Below are positions 29,210 to 59,900 of a DNA stretch of 64,000 nt, in pieces. The notes under the pieces are model-generated. The model was not told where the DNA came from, searched no databases, and was given only the letters and a program-made list of their open reading frames with translations. The position numbers and the translations under genes were made by a program. The number at the start of each line of letters is the position of its first letter. Position 1 is the first letter of the stretch. Source of the DNA: Cinnamomum chago. Taxonomy: Eukaryota > Streptophyta > Magnoliopsida > Laurales > Lauraceae. The DNA is taken from NCBI GenBank assembly GCA_038049695.1, contig CP142453.1, positions 15,690,001 to 15,754,000 on the forward strand. The letters are read 5' to 3'.

Positions 29210-32200
29210 TTACAACCTTGAGAATCCAAATAATATCAATATATGCACAAGGCAGACAATAAAGTTGGTTGGTGTCATGTTGTAATGGAAACCAACCCGA
29301 GATGATGAGCTACTCACACTCATCTGTCCTGTGTTAACGAACTCGCTCTTACTAGATGATGTACTGACGTTTACAGCCAACGAACCTGAGCAAGAATTTA
29401 AGCAAAGAAGAGAAAAAAATATTTAAATTTTCTTTTATCAATGAGAACTTGTGGTGGGCAGAAGGAAAAAAATAATAATGGATTTTGCATAAGAGAATTG
29501 CTATTTGGTACACTCACAGTCATAATTCCCCCACCCTATGCGCTGAAGAGCCAGATCATAAACAAAGATCTTATCTTTTAGAACAAGGTCTGCAAAATAA
29601 GATTCTAGTTAATCAAATTGAGTGTGGCCTGAATGTTTCACAATCAGTCACAGCTAAATATGTCATACAATCACTTGTTAACTTAAGAAATTAATCAAGT
29701 TGTTGTCCTTAAATATAGAGAATAACCCAAAGAACCCACTGTTAAATGAATTAACACCACAGCTTGGCACAACACTTCCAGTTCTGCTACATTCATATGT
29801 AGAATAAATAAACATTTATAAACCAACATTTTCAATTATTTGTTTAGCAGCGGATCAAATCTTCAAGTTAAACCCATTGAGTTATCAATTCAACCTGGCC
29901 CGGCTGGACATCAAATCGAGTTCGATTCTTTGAAAAGTGAAAGATTAAATTGTGTTCACATTTTACCATTTCATGTTGGATGATGCATCTAATGATGCAG
30001 GAAGACTAGACGAGCAGGGAAAAGAAAAGGAACAAAAGAATATTCAAAATGGTGTTAAGAAGAGGAAAAGGCAAGGTTTGAGGCACCAATGCCCCATTAA
30101 ATATTGAGAACTCTCAAAACAAAACAAAAGGTTCATTTTTCAATTAGACCCACCCAAGGAGTACACCTTGCTCCTTTTAAAAACCAACCCCCAGTTACAT
30201 AATGACACCCGCCTTGCTCCTTTTAAAAATCAATATTAACTAATTCTTTGCTAAAATTCTGAGACCAAGCTCATGGTGATTTCTTGAGACCATAGATGGA
30301 TTTAATCAATCGACACACCTGATCTGCTCTTCCTAAATTATTAAGCCTTGGGTATTAAATAAGATAGTAAGTGGACTACCATACAGTGTGAAGGAGCATG
30401 TACTTTCTATGTATCATAGGTGGACCATGAGATTGTTTTATTCTGGATTACTTGTATTCCGGATTCTACATTGATTTAATTAGGATTTCTAATCAGCTTG
30501 CATCAACAATCAGGGGATTATTTAAGGAAATAATCCAATATAACACTCCAATAGAAAAGGGGGACTGGCCACGATGGGGGATCGCTCTATTGAATCCTAT
30601 CGACTTTTCATTTTTATTGTCTTCCTGCTGTTTTGACATGAGTAGTAGACATGTGAACTTGTTCCTAAAGATCCCTATTAAGGAATAGATTTTTGACATG
30701 TAATTGATTAAGAGAACATCTCTTCTTTTTTTTCATCTTTTTAGGTAAAAGAAGGACATCTCTTACTTGAAGCAAAAGAAAGAAAATCTCATTGTATTCA
30801 ATTTTTCCCAAGGCACAAAAGTCAGTCAGTTTCTTTTCATAAATACTTTAAATTATTTCAAGAGAAAAGATTCCAATGGAGGAAAACCAGAATAATATAT
30901 CCATAGCTAAAATACTCTACACAATAAACAGATCTCAGAGATGGTGAGACAAATAGGGCCACAATGTGGGCCAGGGGGCAAACAACTTCTAAAAAAAAGA
31001 GCCAGAGTTCAAACCTCCTAATATCGTCATTCCCTGAGTTATTTGCCAGCCTATACACCAAACCTCAGCACTATTCTGTACAAATATAAATATCAACCAT
31101 GTGATGTTATCATAAAAATAAAAATAAAATAAAAAACATGTCATGCTGATGTTTATACATGGCACAATATTTCAGTGAAGTGACTGGTCAAATAAAACCC
31201 TGTTGACCTTTAAAGTCATGACTAGTGTTCTGAAAAGTGAATAACCATCAAACTTAAGGCTAAGATTTGATGAAACTGATCTAACCAGTGGTTCATTGCG
31301 GTCAAACCATGACATCAGCATGATCATAATTATATAATAAAAGATAAAGATAAATTTTAAAGCTATATTTAGAAAGTAGAGAAATCATGGGGTGATTGAA
31401 AGGAGTAAACAAGGCAAGGAAATTGGGTCCAAGACCTAACTGTGCAAGAGGGCTCTAAATGCGCTTTAGCCTAAGCTAAGGATGCCTATCAAGCTCCAGA
31501 GACGATGGTGGATACTGTTGAGGAGATTCAATATATAAAGAGGCTAATGATGTTGTCAGTCAACTGCATTCTAAAAGAAGCAAATGGATGGGCAGATGAA
31601 CTGGCAAAATAGGGGGTAGACCTTTTCTCTTTAATGTTTTGAATGACATAACTGTTTGGACTTCAAGCTTGTCCTATACCTTAGTCGTGGGTTTGTTTTC
31701 AGGTGCTCTCTAGCTTCGAGGGCTGTTTTTAAGGGCTGATGTGCCCTTATATTTCTGTTGTTCATATATATTCCCACTATATTAATAAAATTTCTACCAT
31801 TCAAAAAGAAAAAAGAAATCATGAAAGTGCAAAAGATTCGAGATAATTGTTCCCCCTTTTGAAAAAAAATGTTGAATTTTTTTATGTATTAAAATGAAAG
31901 TAACAATTTATAATCCTAGAGTTTGTTACTTTTCACTTCTTCAATTTTACTTATTGGCTGGTTCTTAAAAAGCCAGCCAGTCTGAACAATTAGAACAGTT
32001 AGGTGGTCAGACCACACTGTTCACATGATTCAACTGAGGATAAGTGGTTTTGCTCATGGTCAGAAAACTCTCCGAGTTGACTCTTGACTCTCCCGAGTCA
32101 TATCTTTTTTACGAAGGACCGAGTTAAAAGTAGGGGAGACTCAGCCGAGTCATCTCATTTTAATAAGTTACTTGTTTTCTGAGATATTTCATAGGCAAAT

Positions 32201-35200
32201 CTAAGTTTAAACAATAAAAATTCAATTATAAGTAATTATGCATGAGGTTTGGAGTTAGTAATTTAAAAATGATGACTAGAATGTAATTTGAAACCTATAT
32301 TTGATCTTATAAATTCTATATTTTCTCAAAGTTGCTAGCCAGTAATCCCAAAACTAATTGTTGATGGGAAACTACACAAACAACTACCTAACACCCCCCC
32401 CCCCCCCCCCCCCCCCCGAACCCGGCACATGTTGGCTCTGATACCATCTCAAAGTTGCTAGCCAGTAATCCCAAAACCAATTAGTGATGGGAAACTACAC
32501 AAACAACTACTTAACATATTTGAACTAATAAATTATATAATATGCAATATTTTTCTTTTATTTTCCTTATTGTCGTAATTTTTTGCATATATAAATTTAT
32601 TAATTTGAACTGATTATCATGAATGCATGTAAATAAATGTATTTTTTTTATTTTATAAGTAATGCATTCATTTTCTAATATTATTTAAATTATTTAAAAA
32701 AAAAAAACATGACTCCCGAGTCTCCGCGTTGACTCTATCCGAGTCAATTTTTTTTGCATTGAACGAGTAGAGTCCGAGTCACGAGTTTTCCAACCTTGGT
32801 TTTGCTTGAACCAAACCATAGAAGGGCGGTTTTGGTTCAACCTGATCCAACCAGCTGGTCCAGTCTAGTTTTTCAAAACACCAATCATGACCCAACAAAA
32901 GGACAAAACAGTAGCAAGTGAAACTCACAAAAGGTTCCTGCTGAAGAAGATAGTCTTCTGGTTTTAAAATCATTGATGCGTTCTGGAAGTTCAGCGTAAC
33001 AGAAGGAAATACCTCGTTGACACTGTACAAAGAGACCGGGCACTATAATAAGATAAATTGTCATCCCGTTGTGGGCATCTATTATAAAAACCCATATGTG
33101 CCTATACAATTTTAATTTCTCATTGTTCTAAGATACCAAACCTGCCAGAGATCCAGAAGCAGTAGCTTTCATTAGAAGGAAGATAATGTGCAGATTGTGA
33201 AACAGCAGCATTTATCTGCAAGGGTTTATTACCATTAAAAAATAATAATAAACTTATAAACCACGAATGTCTATTCAGAATAGATGATTAAAAATATGTC
33301 CATCGTTAAAGAAGCTTCGGCAGCATAAGTAGTTAATAATAACATGAGATGGAAGAGTCACCCGACCAGGACAGCAAAGGAGCTATCCCTGATTCTCTAC
33401 AGGAATGAGTTTGTGCCAAGAGAGGTTAAGATGACCAAAAAATAAATTCATGCTTTGCACAATCAGGTGGCATTGATGGAAGTGTCAACTATTTTAGAGA
33501 GAAAATTCCAATCATGGCCTTGTACTGCTCCTAATGACAGATACACACTCCCAATAAATTTTCAGGATGGTCAATATGCACTCGCAGAGGGAACCTTGGG
33601 AGTAAGATGGACCATACAAATATTAAACTCTGCATCAGCTGTCAGGGTTATGAATCACAATACTCATTACATTGCTCAAGCTAATGACAGTGACAAAGGT
33701 GAGAGAGATGTTGTACCAATATAACTTACTGCATTGACAAATGGAGCATAAGCTTCTTGTACAAGGTAAGTCAATGTTGTTCCAGTATCAACAATGGTCC
33801 CTCGATTGCTTGATGTTTCAAACACTGCTGGATCAATGGACAATATTTGCCCATTAACAGCAATGCTTTGCAAATTCAGATTATAATGAGGCCTGCAAGT
33901 AATTACCAAAAAAGCAGTCACATCCTTCTGCAAAATCAACAGCTTGAAATGTTCAAATTTTAGCAAGATTTATCTAATCAAAATTGAAGTTGGGCTGCAT
34001 TCGTTGTTTAATGCCATATTAAAGCTATTGCTTATATCACTGTACCTTGTCTAATATGGGAAGACGTGTCAAACAATGCAATAAACATAATTTTTTAATA
34101 GAACACAAAAAATCCCCAAATAGATGTGACAGGGCTTTAATGATGATGATGGTGGTGGTTATATAATGTTCTAAATGTCAATAAAATTTCAAAAGATAAT
34201 GTTAAAGTTAAAAAAAAAAATCTTATATAATGTTATAAATGTTAATAAGATTTCAAAAGATAATATTTAAGTAACATATCTTAGATTATCACTTCACAGA
34301 TAATAGAGGTCCAACAGAGTTTAGGGTTTAAGAAAATAACACAAGAAAGAAAACATATGGACAGGGCCAAAATTGGTAGATATTGGTTCCTACTGATTTT
34401 AAAACCCATGACAGAGCCACATGCATGCTAATTCAAGGGGATGGGAGGAATGATCCTAGCCATGCAATTAGGCCCCATGAAAACTGGCTTTAATATGGGT
34501 TGGCCTGGTGATCATTCTGCAGGCCCTTCATCCTCTGGTTAGAAAAAAAAAATCTGGGTGAAATTTCATCCACGGAGCATCTAAGATATCCCAATCAAAT
34601 CACACAAAACTCAGTCAATCAGCATGCATCCAGGAGGGCTGCACATGCAAGCCCTCAGATCCAACCGGTATGAAATTCATGGTGTCTCCAAGATATCCCT
34701 TCATATCCCACTAAACCCCATACAGTGGCATGCATCCAGGTGGGCCGCATAAGCAAACCCACACCTCATATTAGGGGCAATCATGGCACATGATTGTGGT
34801 CTCTATCACTCCAAATATACCCTTCCCTCCACTCAATCTCACTATTTTTCTTTGCTAAATTAAATGTTAGCTTTACCAGAATTGGATAACATTCTCACCT
34901 GTAGAGACTTCCCAGAGCAGACATCACACTGCAAAACAACCATTAAACATGGCAATGGCTTGCCATTTGCCAAGCACTTTGACCATCAACATCTATAAAT
35001 GCCAAAATAAAATGCTATCCTTCTTAGCATGCCCATCCATAGGGCTGTCAATAGACCAGGCCTAGTTGTTCGATTTGAACAGGTAAGCACCCTATTGGGC
35101 TGGATCTAATTAAATTTTAATTATCTGGCTGGCCCTCTAAAAGCCCTAGAACTATATTGCATTTTTTCTGCCAGCATAAGCCACCTGAAACAGATTCTGG

Positions 35201-35591: not shown

Positions 35592-35635
<44 letters not shown>

Positions 35636-52200: not shown

Positions 52201-55200
52201 CAGTACCCTATCATAAGGCTTTCTCTAAATTGATGAAGACCATATGAAGACTTTTCCTTTTCTCACAGTATTTTTTTTATTAATTGCCTAAGTGAGAAGA
52301 TAGCTTCCATAGTTGACCTCCCTGACATAAGACCAAATTGATTTTTAGACATTTTGGTTTGTTATCCAAGTCTTTGCTCCATTACTCTCCCATAGTTTCA
52401 TAGTGTGACTCATAAGTTTCAGTCCCGTGATAGTTGGTGCAACTTTCTATATTTCCTTTGTTCTTGCATATAGGTACTATAACACTCCTCCATTTATCTG
52501 GCTCTTTGTTTACCCTTGATATGTTATTGAAAAGCCTAGTTAACCAAATTCATCCAATCTCTCCTACTCATTTCCAAGCCCCCATCAAAATACCTTCTGG
52601 CCCCATAGCCTTTCATATCTTCATTAGTGCCAATGCTTTCTTCACTTCTACTATGATTCTGCGAGTTTTTACTGCCGGTGTCAAGCCTATTGAAAAGCCT
52701 AGTTAACCAAATTCATCCAATTTCTCCTACTCATTTCCAAGCCCCCATCAAAATACCATCTGGCTCCATAGCCTTTCCCATCTTCATTAGTGCCAATGCT
52801 TTCTTCACTATGATTCTGCGAGTTTTTACTGCCAGTCTCAAGCCTATATAAAGGAGGATTGTGTTAGGTAGGTTGAGAGACAAGAGTAAAACCTTTTGTC
52901 ACGGTAAGAATTACACACAATCTGTTGCAATGTTTTGGCTTGCTACTTCAAGATGCATCTTGTTAGAAGCCTCTATATATCTGTTGAAAAGGGTTCCGAC
53001 ATGTGTCTGGTGTTGTCATGAAGCACTGTTTTAGACGTCTATCTAGTTTAAATTATTCACTCAGGTGATATTAAGTTTACTGCAAGGCTGGGGCTATGTT
53101 TTGGTAAGAGGTACCCCACACAGATTTTCATGAGGTAACTTTTTTACCTCAACATGCGACACCCCATAAGATATCCCCCCAACCCACTAAACCCCCAATG
53201 AATTAGCACTCACCCTAATTTGACACTAATCTAAATAATAATCACCATCGAAGGTTTTTAAGTTATATTTTCATGAAATTTAATTTGAGAGTGATTATTT
53301 TTCAGATTAACGCCAAATTAGGGTTGGTGAGTGTGGGGGGTGAATTTTCCATGGGGTATCCCACGCGGTGCTAAAAAAGTTACCTCTCACGCAAATCTGT
53401 GAGGGTACCTTTTAGCATAAGATAGCCCTATAATACATATATATGTTCTGCTAATGCAAGAGAGGTCAACCCACTTGAATGTATGCTAATCATGGGAGGG
53501 TGGTGTGATGGAAAGGTCTCATTGTGGATATGATTTTGGGTAAAAATCATCTCAACAAAATCATCGCATCATTGATTTACAGGCCTTAAAACGGTTTCTT
53601 AAGTTGCATGTTTTATTAAATTTAATCCAATGAAGAGTATAATTCAGATTAGTGTCAATCAGGGTGAGTTCATAGGGGGTTATTGAGTGTGAGGGGCACT
53701 GATTTGTAATAGGGGGTCCCATGTGGTGGGAAAAAAGGTTACCTGTTAACAGATTGGGTGAGAGGTACCTCTTGGTAGAACATGACCCTAAATGTGTATG
53801 GATCTAGACAAGATAGGAAACTACAACCAACCAGAATGTTAGGGCTTGTAAGATTTTGGCGGGTCTGCAGAAACTGACCACCAAATCAGAAGGTCCTAGA
53901 GGGGCTGGTGAACATCTCGTACCAGCCTGATAGGACTGGAGGGCACAAGTGAGAGCCTTCAAGGCCTGGCGATTACTGGCCGGAACATGAATCATACCTG
54001 GGCCTTCAAGGCCTAGCATCTAGTGCAGGAAGGCCTATAGGACCAAACAATTGAGTTAGAAGAACCTTTAAGGTCAGGTAACAGCTATAGACCTTTTTGG
54101 GGCCTGATTTTCTCATCAGGGCCTAATCTGCTACTGAAGGCACAATACGCTCTTGAAGGCCTGTGATGCTTGAGATCTTCACAGCCAGCCAAAATTATAG
54201 CAAGGAGAGAATAATGGAGATGAAAACGAGAAAGGAGACAAATGAAGTAGAAGAACCTTTAAGGTCAGGGAACAGCTATAGACCTTTTTGGGGCCTGATT
54301 TTCTCATCAGGGCCTAATCTGCTAGTGAAGGCACAATACACTCTTGAAGGCCTGTGATGCATGAGATCTTCACAGCCAGCCAAGATTATAGCAAGGAGGG
54401 AATAATGGAGATGAAAAGGAGAAAGGAGAAACCTAGAGAGACCTGTTCACGTGCCTAGACATGGCTCTGATACCATGTTCACATGAAGAGATTTGAATGC
54501 AAAGGAAAAAATAGAGGAATAGACGAATTACTTCTTTTTTGGCTCCTCTCATCACGAGATTCACTCTCCTTTGATAGGCATTGAAGTAACATTGGGATAA
54601 AATTCCATATTGTTACAAAGACGACCCAAAACCTACAACTGTAAATACCCCTATTCCGCCCTCATCTCTCGATGGTACTAAGGGAAAAACAATTTTTCTA
54701 TATGGTGATTACAACAATTAATCCTAGATTCCTAGTAAATAATTATAACAGTTACTCCTAGATTCCTAGTAAACTGTTATTTCAAGAAATTGGAAAAGCT
54801 AACAAGTGCTTCATTAACGTAATTGGAATATGTAGCTAGGGTGTCACATATCTGTAGGGAGCGCTGAGTACAAATGTGGGGGCCATTTATAACACCCTAC
54901 ACCTCATTGATATGATAATGCATAATACCAACTACCAACTAAATATCACAAAAATTTGATCGATGAAAATGTAAAAGTAGCAGGAGAAAAAAGACAGCAC
55001 GTAATATAAGATATGATGAATCTTTTATAGGATCCGAGTGTTAGATAATAAATGCATGTAACAAGAAAAGGTGTACCTGAGAACTAACACAGACAATGAT
55101 CCGTCCACAAGCAAAAGCAGTAGCTGTAATACTTACGGATGGGTTTTCACAGAGAGAGACAACCTACATATATATACGTTGAAGAAATTAGAATAACTTA

Positions 55201-58200
55201 TTAGATCCCATCACAAACAAAAATTTCAAAGTAGAACTCAAAATGTAAATAAGCATTATATACTTCTTATTTGATAACAATAAATTCAGTAAAATCGAAG
55301 AAATTTATAGTATGTACATCTAAATTAATCATGTTTGTTTGTTGCTTTAGTTGAAACAAAAGTTTCAAGCTGATGGTCAACCTGCCTAGCACAACCCTCC
55401 TCCTTTGACCGGGCTTTTTTTTTTTAATATTTCCTTTGTCTGGGCTTGGGAACAACAGAACTTCAATAGCAGAAGTTTTACACTGCCGAGTTACATATAT
55501 CTATATTAATGAATTAAATAAATAGACAAAGGTGGTTGTAGGGTTCTTTTCCCTAGGATTGGATTTTCTTATGGAGGTCCATAGTGTAAAGCTCCTATAC
55601 CGGTATCTATTTAGTTGTTTATATTACCACATCTGTACTTTTACCTATCTTAATGTTAAAATTCAATTGCAGAAAAAAGAAACCAAACCAAACCAAACCA
55701 AGCCTTTTCTCACTAGGTGGGGTCGGCTATATGGGTTTGACGACGCCAATTAAATCTGTTTAAGGTCATGTCATCCGTTAGATCCATGTAGGCAATGTCA
55801 TGTTTAATAGTTTATTTCCAACTTCTCTTGGGTCTCCCTCTCCCTCTCCTACTCTTACTCCTGGCAATCTCCATGCTTTCACACCTTTTAACAGGTGCCT
55901 CCGTTGGGCGCCTTCTAACATGGTCGAACCATCTCAGTCGATTTTCTCTCATTTTATCTTCAATCGGTGCTATTCCTACTTTGCCCCTAATCTCCTCATT
56001 CATAATCCTATCTCTCCTTGTGATCCCACACATCCATCTTAGCATTCTCATCTCCGCAACTTCCATCTTCTTAGCATGATTATGCTTTACTGCCCAACAC
56101 TCTGATCCATATAACAACGCTGGATGTACCGCCACCTTATAATACTTTCCTTTCCTTTAACCTTGAGGGGGACTTTCCGATCACACAAGACCCCCGAAAC
56201 ACTCCTTCATTTGGTCCACCCGGCCTAAATCCTGTGACTTACATCAGTATCAATCTCTTCATCCTGTTGCATCATAGATCCAAGGTACCTAAAGTTTTCT
56301 TTCTCTACAATCTTTTGTGTGCCCAAACTTATTTCTATGTTACCAGGTGTCCTACTTTGACTAAACTTGCATTCCATATAATCTGTCTTGCATCGACTTA
56401 GCCTAAACCCTTCTGTCTCTAACGTTTTCCGCCACAATTCTAACTTAGCATTCACTCCTCTCGTCTCACCCACTAAAACAATGTCATCTGCAAATAGCAT
56501 ACACCACGGCACCTCATCCTGAAAATGTCTTATAATCTCATCCATAACTAGGGCAAACAAGTACGGGCTTAACGCTGAGCCTTGGTGTAGACCAATTGTG
56601 ATAGGAAACTCTTTAGTTTCTCCGACAGTCGTTCTTATAGATGTCACGACTCTATCATACATATCCTTTATCGCCTCAATATATGCGACACACACTCTTT
56701 TGATTTCCAGTACTCTCCATAGAATCTCCCTAAGAACCCGGTCATAGGCCTTCTCCAAGTTAATGAACACCATATGTAAATCTCTCTAACCTTCTCTATA
56801 CTGTTCCATTAACCTTCTCAAGAGAAAGATAGCCTCCATGGTTGATCTCCAAGGCATGAAACCAAATTGATTCTCTGAAACGTTTGTTGTTCTTCTTAGT
56901 CTTCTCTCAATAACTCTCTCCCATAATTTCATCGTACGACTCATCAATTTAATCCCGCGGTAGTTCGCACAGTTCTGAATATCTCATTTGTTCTTGTATA
57001 TAAGTATAAGAATACTTTTCCTCCATGCATCAGGCATCTTCTTGCTCTTTAGCACTACATTAAAAAGAGTTGTCAACCAACTTATGTCATCCTCCCCCAA
57101 GTACCTCCAGACCTCAATAGGGATACCATCTGGCACAACCACTTTCCCATTCTTCATCATTTTCAATACTTCTTTAACTTCTTCTCTACCGATTCTCCTA
57201 TAGAACGTATGATTTGATTCTTCCCTATAAATGGTAAGCTGCCCCAATTGTACGTCACTACTACTGCTTTCTTTAAATAACTTGTAGAAGTAGCTCTTCC
57301 AACGCTCCTTTATCTCCTCTTCCTTTACTAATACCTTTTCATCCTCATCCTTAATGCATTTAATTTGGTTTAAGTCCTTGGTCCGCCTATCTCTGGCTTT
57401 GGCAAGCTTGAATATCTCTCTTTCGCCTTCCTTTGTGTCGAGTCGCCTATATAGCTCCTCAAATGCCTTTGCCTTGGCCTCAATAACTGCCTTTTTGGTT
57501 TCTCTTTTTTCTTTTTCTTTTTTTCTCTTTTTGAAAAAAAAAAAGAAAAAGAAAAAAGCACATAAGACTGATGAAAATATTGAAATGTGAAACTGCATAT
57601 CAAATTAGAACCCACATTTTAATCCCTAGAACTAACATCATATAACAAAATACATCTGAATGAGAATAAGACAACCTCTGTTTTAATCAATAGCTCATAT
57701 GAATAAGCACATATTTTTATTCCTCGCTCCTTATTTGTGCCGTAATTAGATGGGCCTGACCCCTTCTAGAGCAGAAGTTTTGTGCCTCGAAATGCTTTCA
57801 TGGTTTGTTCTAAACTGATCAAGACAATCTTAAAAATAAAAATAAATAAAAATCCCCAAGAGATGCAGGTATCACCCAGTACATTCAGAGAGATCATTTG
57901 TCACCTTTCTTCCAAAAGAATAATGAAGCACCAAATGGTCCACATCTTCCATGCAACAAACCAATCAAACTTGCTGAACACTGGACTACTCCCTCTGTTT
58001 GGCTGATTTGAAGACCTTAAAAAACTTTTTTTTTTCCATCCAATCCAATCCACTGGGATTCATTGTATGGCAGTCTTCTACTACTTAAGATGCTCTGATA
58101 CCATGTTAAAGCATCCATTATGATAGTTTCTAAGGTTTCCTTCTTTTAAGGTTTAGAAAAACCATTGAAAGAGAAGTAACTTACTAATAGTGAGACTCTG

Positions 58201-59900
58201 GTGAAAACCTAACACCTAATTTTAAAAAAGCACTTATAGGATGTTTAATTTTCCAAATATAACGCATATACTCTGTCCTATTATAACCACCAACAAAAGT
58301 CATAATAATTTGGCCAAAAAAATGGTATTAGGATTCAGACGCCAAAACAGAGCACCAAAACTGCAATTTGAAATAAAATTTCCCTAAAAAATAACAAAGT
58401 CAGAAGATAACATCTCAATTTCTTTCGCTTTTTCATTTTGAAAAATGAAAAATGTAAAAGATCAATGGGACAAAGAAAGTATTAGTAAGGCAGATCAAGC
58501 ATAAATTCTTTCTGTATTGGAATAAGAATGGATTCCAAATTTTTATTAAGCAACCTCAGAGGCAAGCCATTCTCATTTTTTAACTATGGGTGAGAATGTT
58601 AATTCCTTAAGGTAGTTACAACAATAAAGGCCAGGAATGTCTCTTAGTTGATCAGTTCCCATAAATGGTTTGTGAAATTAATTGAAGGTCACAGCAACAA
58701 TGCTTTGGCAGCATTGACCCTCTCCTGTGCATACCTGTCATGATTTTCTAGGGACGACAAGCTAAATTCGTGCAGGCATATTTTAATATAGTAGGTAAAA
58801 GCCTTTACAAGCAATGATCTGTAAAAATTTCCCTAAAAATGTGAAGTTACCCTCTAAACCTTCTTTCTCCTTTCTCCTTTCTCCATTCTACAGGGCAACT
58901 ACCACCGTACAACATTTGTCCCTATATTTTAACCATCATTGCAAGAAGCAACTCTATATCATATTGCCATTCAGCAGTTTAACTCATAAAGTAAATTTAT
59001 CAAGGTTAGAAAACTCCTGAGTTGACTCTTGACTGTCCCGAGTCATCTCGTTTTGACAAAGGATCAAGTCAAATACAGGGGAGACTTGGCCAATTCACCT
59101 CATTTTAATAAGCTGTTGAACCATTTAATAGGTAGGTATGATTTTAAACAATTTCAATGTTTATTTTCAAGTAATTATGCATGAGTTTGTAGCCATCAAT
59201 TTAAAAACTATGGTTGGAATGTAATTTGAAACTTATATGTATCTTTTATCTATGATATTTGGACTAACAAATTATGTAATATGCAACATGTTTTTTATTG
59301 TCCCTATTATACCATTTTTCTTGCATATATAAATATATTAATTTGAATCGATTATAATGAATGCATGTAAATAAATGTATATTTATATTTTATAAGTATT
59401 TGAGTAATTTTAAAAAATGACTCTCAAGTCTCCACATTGGCTCTATCAAAGTCTCTTTTTTTTTCTTTTTTTTTTTGCATTGGACGAATCAAGTCCTAGT
59501 CACGAGTTTTCCAACGTTGAAATTTATCATGAAGGATTGCATAAAGAGAACCATAACTAAGACTGGTGATATTATTAGAGCAAATTTGATCTTCAAGGTT
59601 GTTCAGATAAAAGATAGCATTTTCCAATTACTAAATGCACTCTATTCAACCATTCACAGTCAACACAATCAAATAGTTGAAATAGATATGATAGTTGAAA
59701 TAGATATGAGTTATGCAGTAATATATTTCAAGGCAATTAGGAAGAAAATAAAAATGTATAAACTTCCACCGAAAATCACAGAATATATAACAATTAATTA
59801 ACCATAAAGGGAATATACCTGCTTTGCAAATAATGCAATAGAGATAGATTGAGGGACAAGAGGATCGTTGATAATTTTAAGCAATCCACTTGTTTTTGCT
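49259..59900 (-). CDS. GLE1: mRNA export factor GLE1, C-terminal 241 residues (5' part outside window)
   Basis: Six exons in gene order: 59900-59819, 55163-55077, 50982-50899, 49930-49799, 49674-49546, 49471-49259. The first one enters with one base of a split codon, so at least one more exon lies upstream. The protein reads [116 protein letters not shown] and ends [20 protein letters not shown] plus KT. This is the HEAT-like C-terminal domain of GLE1, which with inositol hexakisphosphate activates the DEAD-box helicase Dbp5/LOS4 at nuclear pores to release mRNA. I found no further exon up to 64000. The 4.1 kb and 4.7 kb introns upstream of the third and second exons hold LINE and LTR remnants. 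The identification is firm; the N-terminal two thirds is not in the window. Confidence 0.94.
51140..52860 (-). mobile_element. RTE-type LINE, decayed, in a GLE1 intron
   Basis: The left end is the antisense LINE tail (CATCAAAGCCTTGCCCCAAC, ATGTTGGGGTC). About 52215-52240 reads on the minus strand as [13 protein letters not shown]-like, the reverse transcriptase segment seen at 56773. Stops and indels break every frame, and a 163-bp tandem duplication lies near its 5' side. Confidence 0.75.
52526..52848. repeat. 163-bp tandem duplication inside the LINE remnant
   Basis: The segment from ATTGAAAAGCCTAGTTAACC to about TCAAGCCTAT occurs twice head to tail (starts 52526 and 52689) and is nearly identical apart from a small deletion in the second copy. 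It arose after the LINE was already dead. Confidence 0.9.
54058..54432. repeat. 191-bp tandem duplication
   Basis: AGAAGAACCTTTAAGGTCAG at 54058 recurs at 54249. The following text (GGGGCCTGATTTTCTCATC, AGATCTTCACAGCCAGCCAA, GGAGATGAAAA) repeats with only a few differences. It lies in the presumed internal region of the LTR element whose PBS is at 54463-54475. Confidence 0.9.
54463..54901 (-). mobile_element. LTR (54476-54901) with adjoining PBS of an LTR retrotransposon remnant
   Basis: On the minus strand the 426-bp candidate LTR starts TGTAGGGTGTTATAAATGG and ends CATGTGAACA. It is directly followed by TGGTATCAGAGCC (54475-54463), the initiator tRNA-Met primer site. The internal region would extend left to about 53800, but no gag or pol coding and no second LTR was found, so the element is truncated or internally deleted. 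The outer LTR border is set by the terminal ACA only. Confidence 0.65.
55676..57530 (-). mobile_element. RTE-clade LINE, 5'-truncated, reverse transcriptase domain mostly readable
   Basis: Minus-strand frames at about 57530-56984, 56773-56225 and 56135-55812 together cover an RTE reverse transcriptase: [19 protein letters not shown], then [17 protein letters not shown], the catalytic FADD in [36 protein letters not shown], and the C-terminal [35 protein letters not shown] and [10 protein letters not shown]. The endonuclease domain is missing. The 3' end is CCGACCCCACCTAGTGAGAA followed by a (TTGGT)n-type tail at about 55680-55700. Frame breaks between the three blocks show it is inactive. It sits in the GLE1 intron between exons 59819 and 55163, in the same orientation as GLE1. 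Confidence 0.9.
58092..58103 (-). other. Initiator tRNA-Met primer binding site of a further LTR element remnant
   Basis: The minus strand reads TGGTATCAGAGC directly after TTTAACA, as expected at an LTR/PBS junction. A presumed LTR would run right from 58104 (plus-strand TGTTAAAGC), but I could not fix its other end or find a partner. Confidence 0.5.
59001..59519. mobile_element. hAT-type MITE, 519 bp (GLE1 intron)
   Basis: Ends CAAGGTTAGAAAACTCCTGA and the inverse of ACGAGTTTTCCAACGTTG, flanked by the exact 8-bp duplication AAATTTAT (58993-59000 and 59520-59527). It is colinear with the element at 32055-32798 (shared words GTAATTATGCATGAG, GAATGTAATTTGAAAC, GAATGCATGTAAATAAATGT) and represents the empty site of the mini LTR insertion there. 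Confidence 0.92.

Follow-up and report, generated by a model that had tools for sequence, protein, structure and literature searches.

A 193-bp LTR-retrotransposon insertion of TRIM type in Cinnamomum chago is most likely a shortened copy from an ordinary family of about 310-bp elements

Plant TRIMs have been sorted into 289 subfamilies with a mean length of 685 bp, using criteria that include a length below 1,500 bp without gaps and the absence of retrotransposon proteins, and are held to derive from internal deletions of larger elements (PMC4717578). The smallest subfamily described there, CcaRetroS9, is 233 bp long with 52-bp LTRs and has 10 complete copies (PMC4717578). TRIM sequences in syntenic maize genes average 219.9 bp (PMC4717578), and individual short TRIM pieces are thus common. 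The SMART element of grasses, FRetro129, is described as a non-coding element of 292 bp with 85-bp LTRs, a PBS and a PPT, present in tens to hundreds of complete copies, depending on the species (PMC3281118). Complete SMART copies in O. brachyantha average 260.6 ± 35.5 bp (PMC3281118), which suggests to us that shortened copies exist there too. TRIMs with Pol III promoters in their LTRs have also been reported (PMC10886601).

Here we analyzed a 64,000-nucleotide stretch of DNA, hereafter the window (G000:C3:15690001-15754000), from a source genome of 1.06 Gb in 14 contigs. It contains a 193-bp element (32324-32516, minus strand) composed of a 5' LTR, a PBS, 16 nt, a G24 tract, and a 3' LTR (Table 1). 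Self-BLAST recovered the two 70-bp direct repeats recorded in the initial annotation, with 66 of 70 positions identical, four differing sites (94.3%; E 3.8e-27), and 53 bases separating them. On the minus strand, these 53 bases consist of TGGTATCAGAGCC, which follows the LTR without a spacer, then AACATGTGCCGGGTTC, then G24; the plus strand of the same element shows C24 and GGCTCTGATACCA, and every LTR-element feature belongs to the minus strand. The PBS and the G24 tract each abut an LTR on that strand, in agreement with the earlier description. We take the PBS to be of the iMet type, presumably pairing with the initiator-Met tRNA. The flanking TATTT duplication reads AAATA on the element strand.

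Table 1. Coordinates of the 193-bp element, the MITEs and the neighbouring gene stretches; positions are those of the window.
Feature	Position	Strand	Basis or remark
MITE carrying the insertion, 744 bp including 198 bp from the insertion	32055..32798	.	8-bp duplication GTTTTGCT at 32047-32054 and 32799-32806
5-bp target-site duplication, copy 1 (TATTT)	32319..32323	.	occurs once at the empty site in the related MITE
3' LTR, 70 bp, start TGTTAGG, end TTTGAGA	32324..32393	-	repeat comparison
G24 tract at the family PPT position	32394..32417	-	at the 51 other loci, the longest run of G close to the 3' LTR has a median of 6
16-nt internal-region remnant AACATGTGCCGGGTTC	32418..32433	-	aligns with the start of the internal region in full-length copies
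PBS TGGTATCAGAGCC, abutting the 5' LTR	32434..32446	-	sequence
5' LTR, 70 bp, start TGTTAAG, end TTTGAGA	32447..32516	-	repeat comparison
5-bp target-site duplication, copy 2 (TATTT)	32517..32521	.	sequence
Related MITE without the insert	59001..59519	.	8-bp duplication AAATTTAT at 58993-59000 and 59520-59527
Putative peptide stretch, part of an aspartic-protease-like exon upstream of the insertion-bearing intron	32929..33024	-	resemblance; approximate borders
Putative peptide stretch within the following exon of that gene, on the downstream side of the intron	31016..31069	-	resemblance; approximate borders

The element sits in a MITE whose terminal inverted repeats, judged by eye, are imperfect, and whose 8-bp duplication suggests, by its size, a hAT-like MITE. 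The related MITE is 73% identical to it over 563 aligned positions and, when aligned across the insertion site, shows one TATTT and no insert. This alignment bears out both the perfect TATTT duplication and the empty site that had been proposed from the sequence. Tandem duplication as the origin of the 70-bp repeats was ruled out by the target duplication together with the empty site, and chance is not the source of the LTR repeats and the target duplication. The 193-bp stretch is a genuine LTR-retrotransposon insertion of TRIM type, with a PBS, a purine tract, and a target duplication. By itself, the long G-run is weaker evidence in this genome than the repeats and the duplication, because the window has another, G38 at 35597-35634, next to which no LTR repeat was seen. 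This second run, which is followed by a GA microsatellite, lies 3.2 kb from the element between stretches read as protease-like exons.

Judging from the surrounding sequence, the insertion is probably in an intron of an aspartic-protease-like gene, in the gene's own orientation. The two stretches flanking it are presumed parts of this gene by resemblance, while Pfam identified TAXi_N twice and TAXi_C once on three other stretches of the gene; one protease stretch had no match among solved structures. Rfam at gathering threshold had zero matches in the window, and neither a comparison of an LTR 23-mer with viral contigs nor one of the 193 bp with plasmids gave a match, as expected for plant sequence.

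Other traces of retroelements were observed elsewhere in the window. At 58103-58214 on the minus strand, an exact TGGTATCAGAGC follows approximately 111 bp reading TGTTAGG...TTTAACA; the two may represent a PBS and an LTR from a further retroelement. Neither the search of 57200-58990 nor a BLAST comparison of this stretch with the window revealed a partner LTR. The exact TGGTATCAGAGC occurs once more, following ...GTGAACA, at 54464-54475 on the minus strand, with no LTR pair in 53400-56200, and a 191-bp tandem duplication, 95% identical, spans 54047-54428. A reverse transcriptase fragment at 56225-56785 on the minus strand (Pfam RVT_1) is presumably a decayed LINE; its neighbouring frame at 56984-57604 had no Pfam match, and a scan of viral contigs with the fragment gave no relative.

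When the 193-bp sequence was used to query the source genome, 71 matches were obtained in the best 40 of 475 first-look candidates; as these were the best-scoring candidates, the sample of loci is not random. Thirty-nine loci were fetched, and two LTRs could be placed in 32 of them and one LTR in seven. Twenty-seven loci were recovered by searching for the pattern at normal spacing; eight of them, matched by coordinates, had already been measured and 19 were new, so that 51 two-LTR loci (32 + 19) were measured with the window excluded. The seven one-LTR loci (L019, L021, L024, L031, L038, L040, and L042) were left out, L021 being the L049 copy with a nested insert. The 51 loci are 263-347 bp long (median 312 bp), with internal regions of 133-224 bp (median 172 bp). 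The shortest, L044 at 263 bp, comes from a group of family members in tandem, L055, and L051 is probably another such group. Perfect 5-bp duplications directly at the fitted LTR ends are present at 20 of the 51 loci, all different from one another and from that of the window. Other copies with independent duplications, on which the initial annotation had made its reading depend, are thus present in the genome. The remaining 31 loci may owe the lack of a perfect duplication to divergence, misplaced ends, truncation, or tandem arrangement. Two pairs of loci, L016/L029 and L026/L027, have flanks in common and, by eye, appear to be segmental duplicates of single insertions; none of the four is among the 20 with perfect duplications, and on account of these pairs the 51 loci represent at most 49 insertions.

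All of these elements, at 193 bp in the window and 263-347 bp at the 51 other loci, fall below 1,500 bp without gaps, and the window copy and other loci alike have the TRIM anatomy of a PBS beside the 5' LTR and a purine tract beside the 3' LTR. The family has the properties set out in the first two of the three TRIM criteria of the published survey (PMC4717578). By their size, internal regions of 133-224 bp at the 51 loci would leave no room for a retrotransposon protein. A helper element was sought by comparing the LTR and the internal region with eight stretches of 9-10 kb that adjoin seven single-LTR loci and one tandem locus; a second LTR at a distance was seen only in L049, whose 1.6 kb between LTRs has no long open frames, and no helper was found in this second-LTR search. 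We read L049 (7867-9823) as one family member split by a nested insertion of approximately 1.6 kb. Family members vary both in the sequence that follows the PBS and in how the LTR ends, two traits that do not fully coincide. When 73 LTRs were tallied, including both from the window, 46 ended in GAGA and the others in GTCA and similar sequences. The initial annotation had considered TG...GA ends unusual, which does not hold within this family, and a precedent outside it is the autonomous Copia element Tos17. This LTR retrotransposon of rice, which is activated by tissue culture, is described as having TG-GA ends (PMC5659011).

Comparison with the other loci shows what the window copy lacks. Full copies have, downstream of the PBS and '..GGGTTCG' (or a variant), approximately 140 bp that lead to a short G-tract and then the 3' LTR; in the window copy, '..GGGTTC' leads directly into G24 and then the LTR. 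In the window copy, the PBS and following 16 nt correspond in alignment to the beginning of a full internal region, and the G-tract is at the same place as in full copies. From the median internal length of 172 bp, the 53 bp of the window copy, and a typical tract of 6-7 G, approximately 137 bp are missing and approximately 17 G have been gained. The description of the element as a complete-looking 193-bp LTR retrotransposon therefore stands as regards a TRIM-type insertion and is not supported as regards completeness, the 51 other loci all being at least 263 bp long.

The G-tract itself varies across the family. In a scripted measure, the 51 other loci have between 2 and 23 G in their longest run close to the 3' LTR (median 6), versus 24 in the window copy, and six of the 51 (L027, L030, L037, L045, L057, and L066) have tracts of at least 15 G, spanning 15-25 G; over the full locus, the tract measures 25 G in L045 and 18 G in L057. 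By eye, L037 and L045, both with expanded tracts, also lack neighbouring bases, while L022 and L046 have lost bases beside the tract with no G expansion, so a causal tie between G expansion and deletion is only conjectural. The tract and its surroundings are variable, and the window copy is compatible with a deletion having one end in the G-tract. Long G homopolymers are error-prone, and the G38 run lies only 3.2 kb away, both of which would favour an assembly or sequencing error that created G24 and removed the missing segment from a copy that is in truth full length. The family, however, has a G-tract at the same place with graded expansions of 15-25 G at other loci, and losing approximately 137 bp of non-repetitive sequence while both LTRs stay is not a simple homopolymer error; we therefore regard such an artefact as very improbable.

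The deletion may have come about by slippage or misalignment at G-rich sequence, and could have occurred either in place after insertion or while the copy was being reverse transcribed. A packaged RNA from a 193-bp element is not required in either case. The alternative is that the 193-bp form is itself mobile, the deletion having preceded insertion by at least one round, with an RNA of approximately 123 nt plus the R repeat packaged, reverse transcribed, and integrated. Such mobility would agree with an intact PBS and G-tract adjoining the LTRs, with the perfect duplication flanking the element, and with the moderate LTR divergence (K 0.060). We searched the genome with the exact anchors GTATYAGAGCC and GTTARGTAGTTGTTTG at a short spacing of 14-44 and a normal spacing of 142-172. 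This revealed a single match at short spacing, the window copy itself, versus 27 at normal spacing, with no match to the reversed-pattern controls in either case. As these exact anchors match 10 of 32 fetched copies tested, short siblings with mutated anchors could be missed; the chance of missing one is approximately 0.69, and that of missing n siblings approximately 0.69 to the power n, if they are as diverged as those 32. Among the best 40 of 475 candidates, scored for similarity to the entire 193 bp, there was no second short copy. The 51 other two-LTR loci, a non-random sample, are all at least 263 bp long. With exact anchors matching 10 of 32 copies, no second copy of the 193-bp form with an independent duplication was found, so the form does not qualify as a distinct subfamily.

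These counts make mobility of the 193-bp form itself improbable. It is likewise doubtful, and in our view unlikely, that this form is a functional minimal substrate, for which 70-bp LTRs, a PBS, and a G-tract would suffice for packaging, reverse transcription, and integration given a helper, and of which sister copies would exist with mutated anchors or in related plants. A record-small mobile family was rejected as an interpretation, a single copy having been found genome-wide with the exact anchors. The suggestion that the element lies near the lower limit for a mobilised LTR RNA thus loses its support, the short spacing occurring once with exact anchors and the 51 other loci measuring at least 263 bp. 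We conclude, with a probability of about 0.86, that the window copy is one internally deleted member of an ordinary TRIM family of approximately 310 bp; the deletion is most likely private to this copy. Retention of both cis sites counts against a random internal deletion, which need not spare them, although a deletion ending in the G-tract would tend to favour keeping both.

The two LTRs of the window copy differ by K 0.060, within a range of 0.017 to 0.30 over the 32 two-LTR loci. Each of the four differing sites has the family's commonest base in one window LTR and, in its partner, a base found in 0 to 2 of 71 other LTRs, which is the pattern expected if the two LTRs were identical at insertion. 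By contrast, the window 3' LTR has three differences from the 3' LTR of L033 versus four from its own partner, and the window 5' LTR has two differences from the 5' LTRs of L010 and L030; with 70 bp, this closeness does not separate the hypotheses. The existence of tandem family members (L055 and probably L051) raises a further explanation, that recombination between two members, for example in a tandem array, made the short copy instead of a deletion within one. Against this, one 5-bp duplication flanks the element, the LTR differences are changes rare or absent elsewhere that affect one side at a time, and a crossover between LTRs would retain the entire internal region or none of it, making recombination an exceedingly improbable source.

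For the family as a whole, we propose a route of transposition in which reverse transcription would start from a primer at the PBS and second-strand synthesis from the G-rich tract beside the 3' LTR, the proteins presumably being supplied by an autonomous helper element. The window copy would then have lost approximately 137 bp between '..GGGTTC' and the 3' LTR, after insertion or while being copied, and its G-tract would have grown to 24 G. Taken together, the window copy is real and most likely ordinary, a shortened TRIM copy. Before the family of a lone miniature LTR element has been examined, the presence of both cis sites does not justify treating that element as a minimal mobile unit. 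The six of 51 loci with expanded tracts, two of them with loss of neighbouring bases, hint that instability of the purine tract is a possible route to ever smaller TRIM copies.

A small size, a presumed lack of coding capacity, two short LTRs, 5-bp duplications, locations in introns, and tandem arrays are features that this family shares with plant TRIMs as described (PMC4717578), and at approximately 312 bp with 70-bp LTRs it lies near the small end of the published range. The window copy, at 193 bp, is shorter than CcaRetroS9 at 233 bp (PMC4717578), yet is a single find. No TRIM below 233 bp was encountered in the partial survey of the literature considered here, and the notion that known TRIM and SMART elements begin at approximately 290 bp had already been superseded by the 233-bp element (PMC4717578). 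By description, SMART/FRetro129 shares with this family a small size, 5-bp duplications, a PBS and PPT, and a presumed lack of coding capacity, but is set apart by its TGT...ACA ends, as the LTRs here mostly end in GAGA and some in GTCA (PMC3281118). Tos17 has TG-GA ends in common with this family (PMC5659011).
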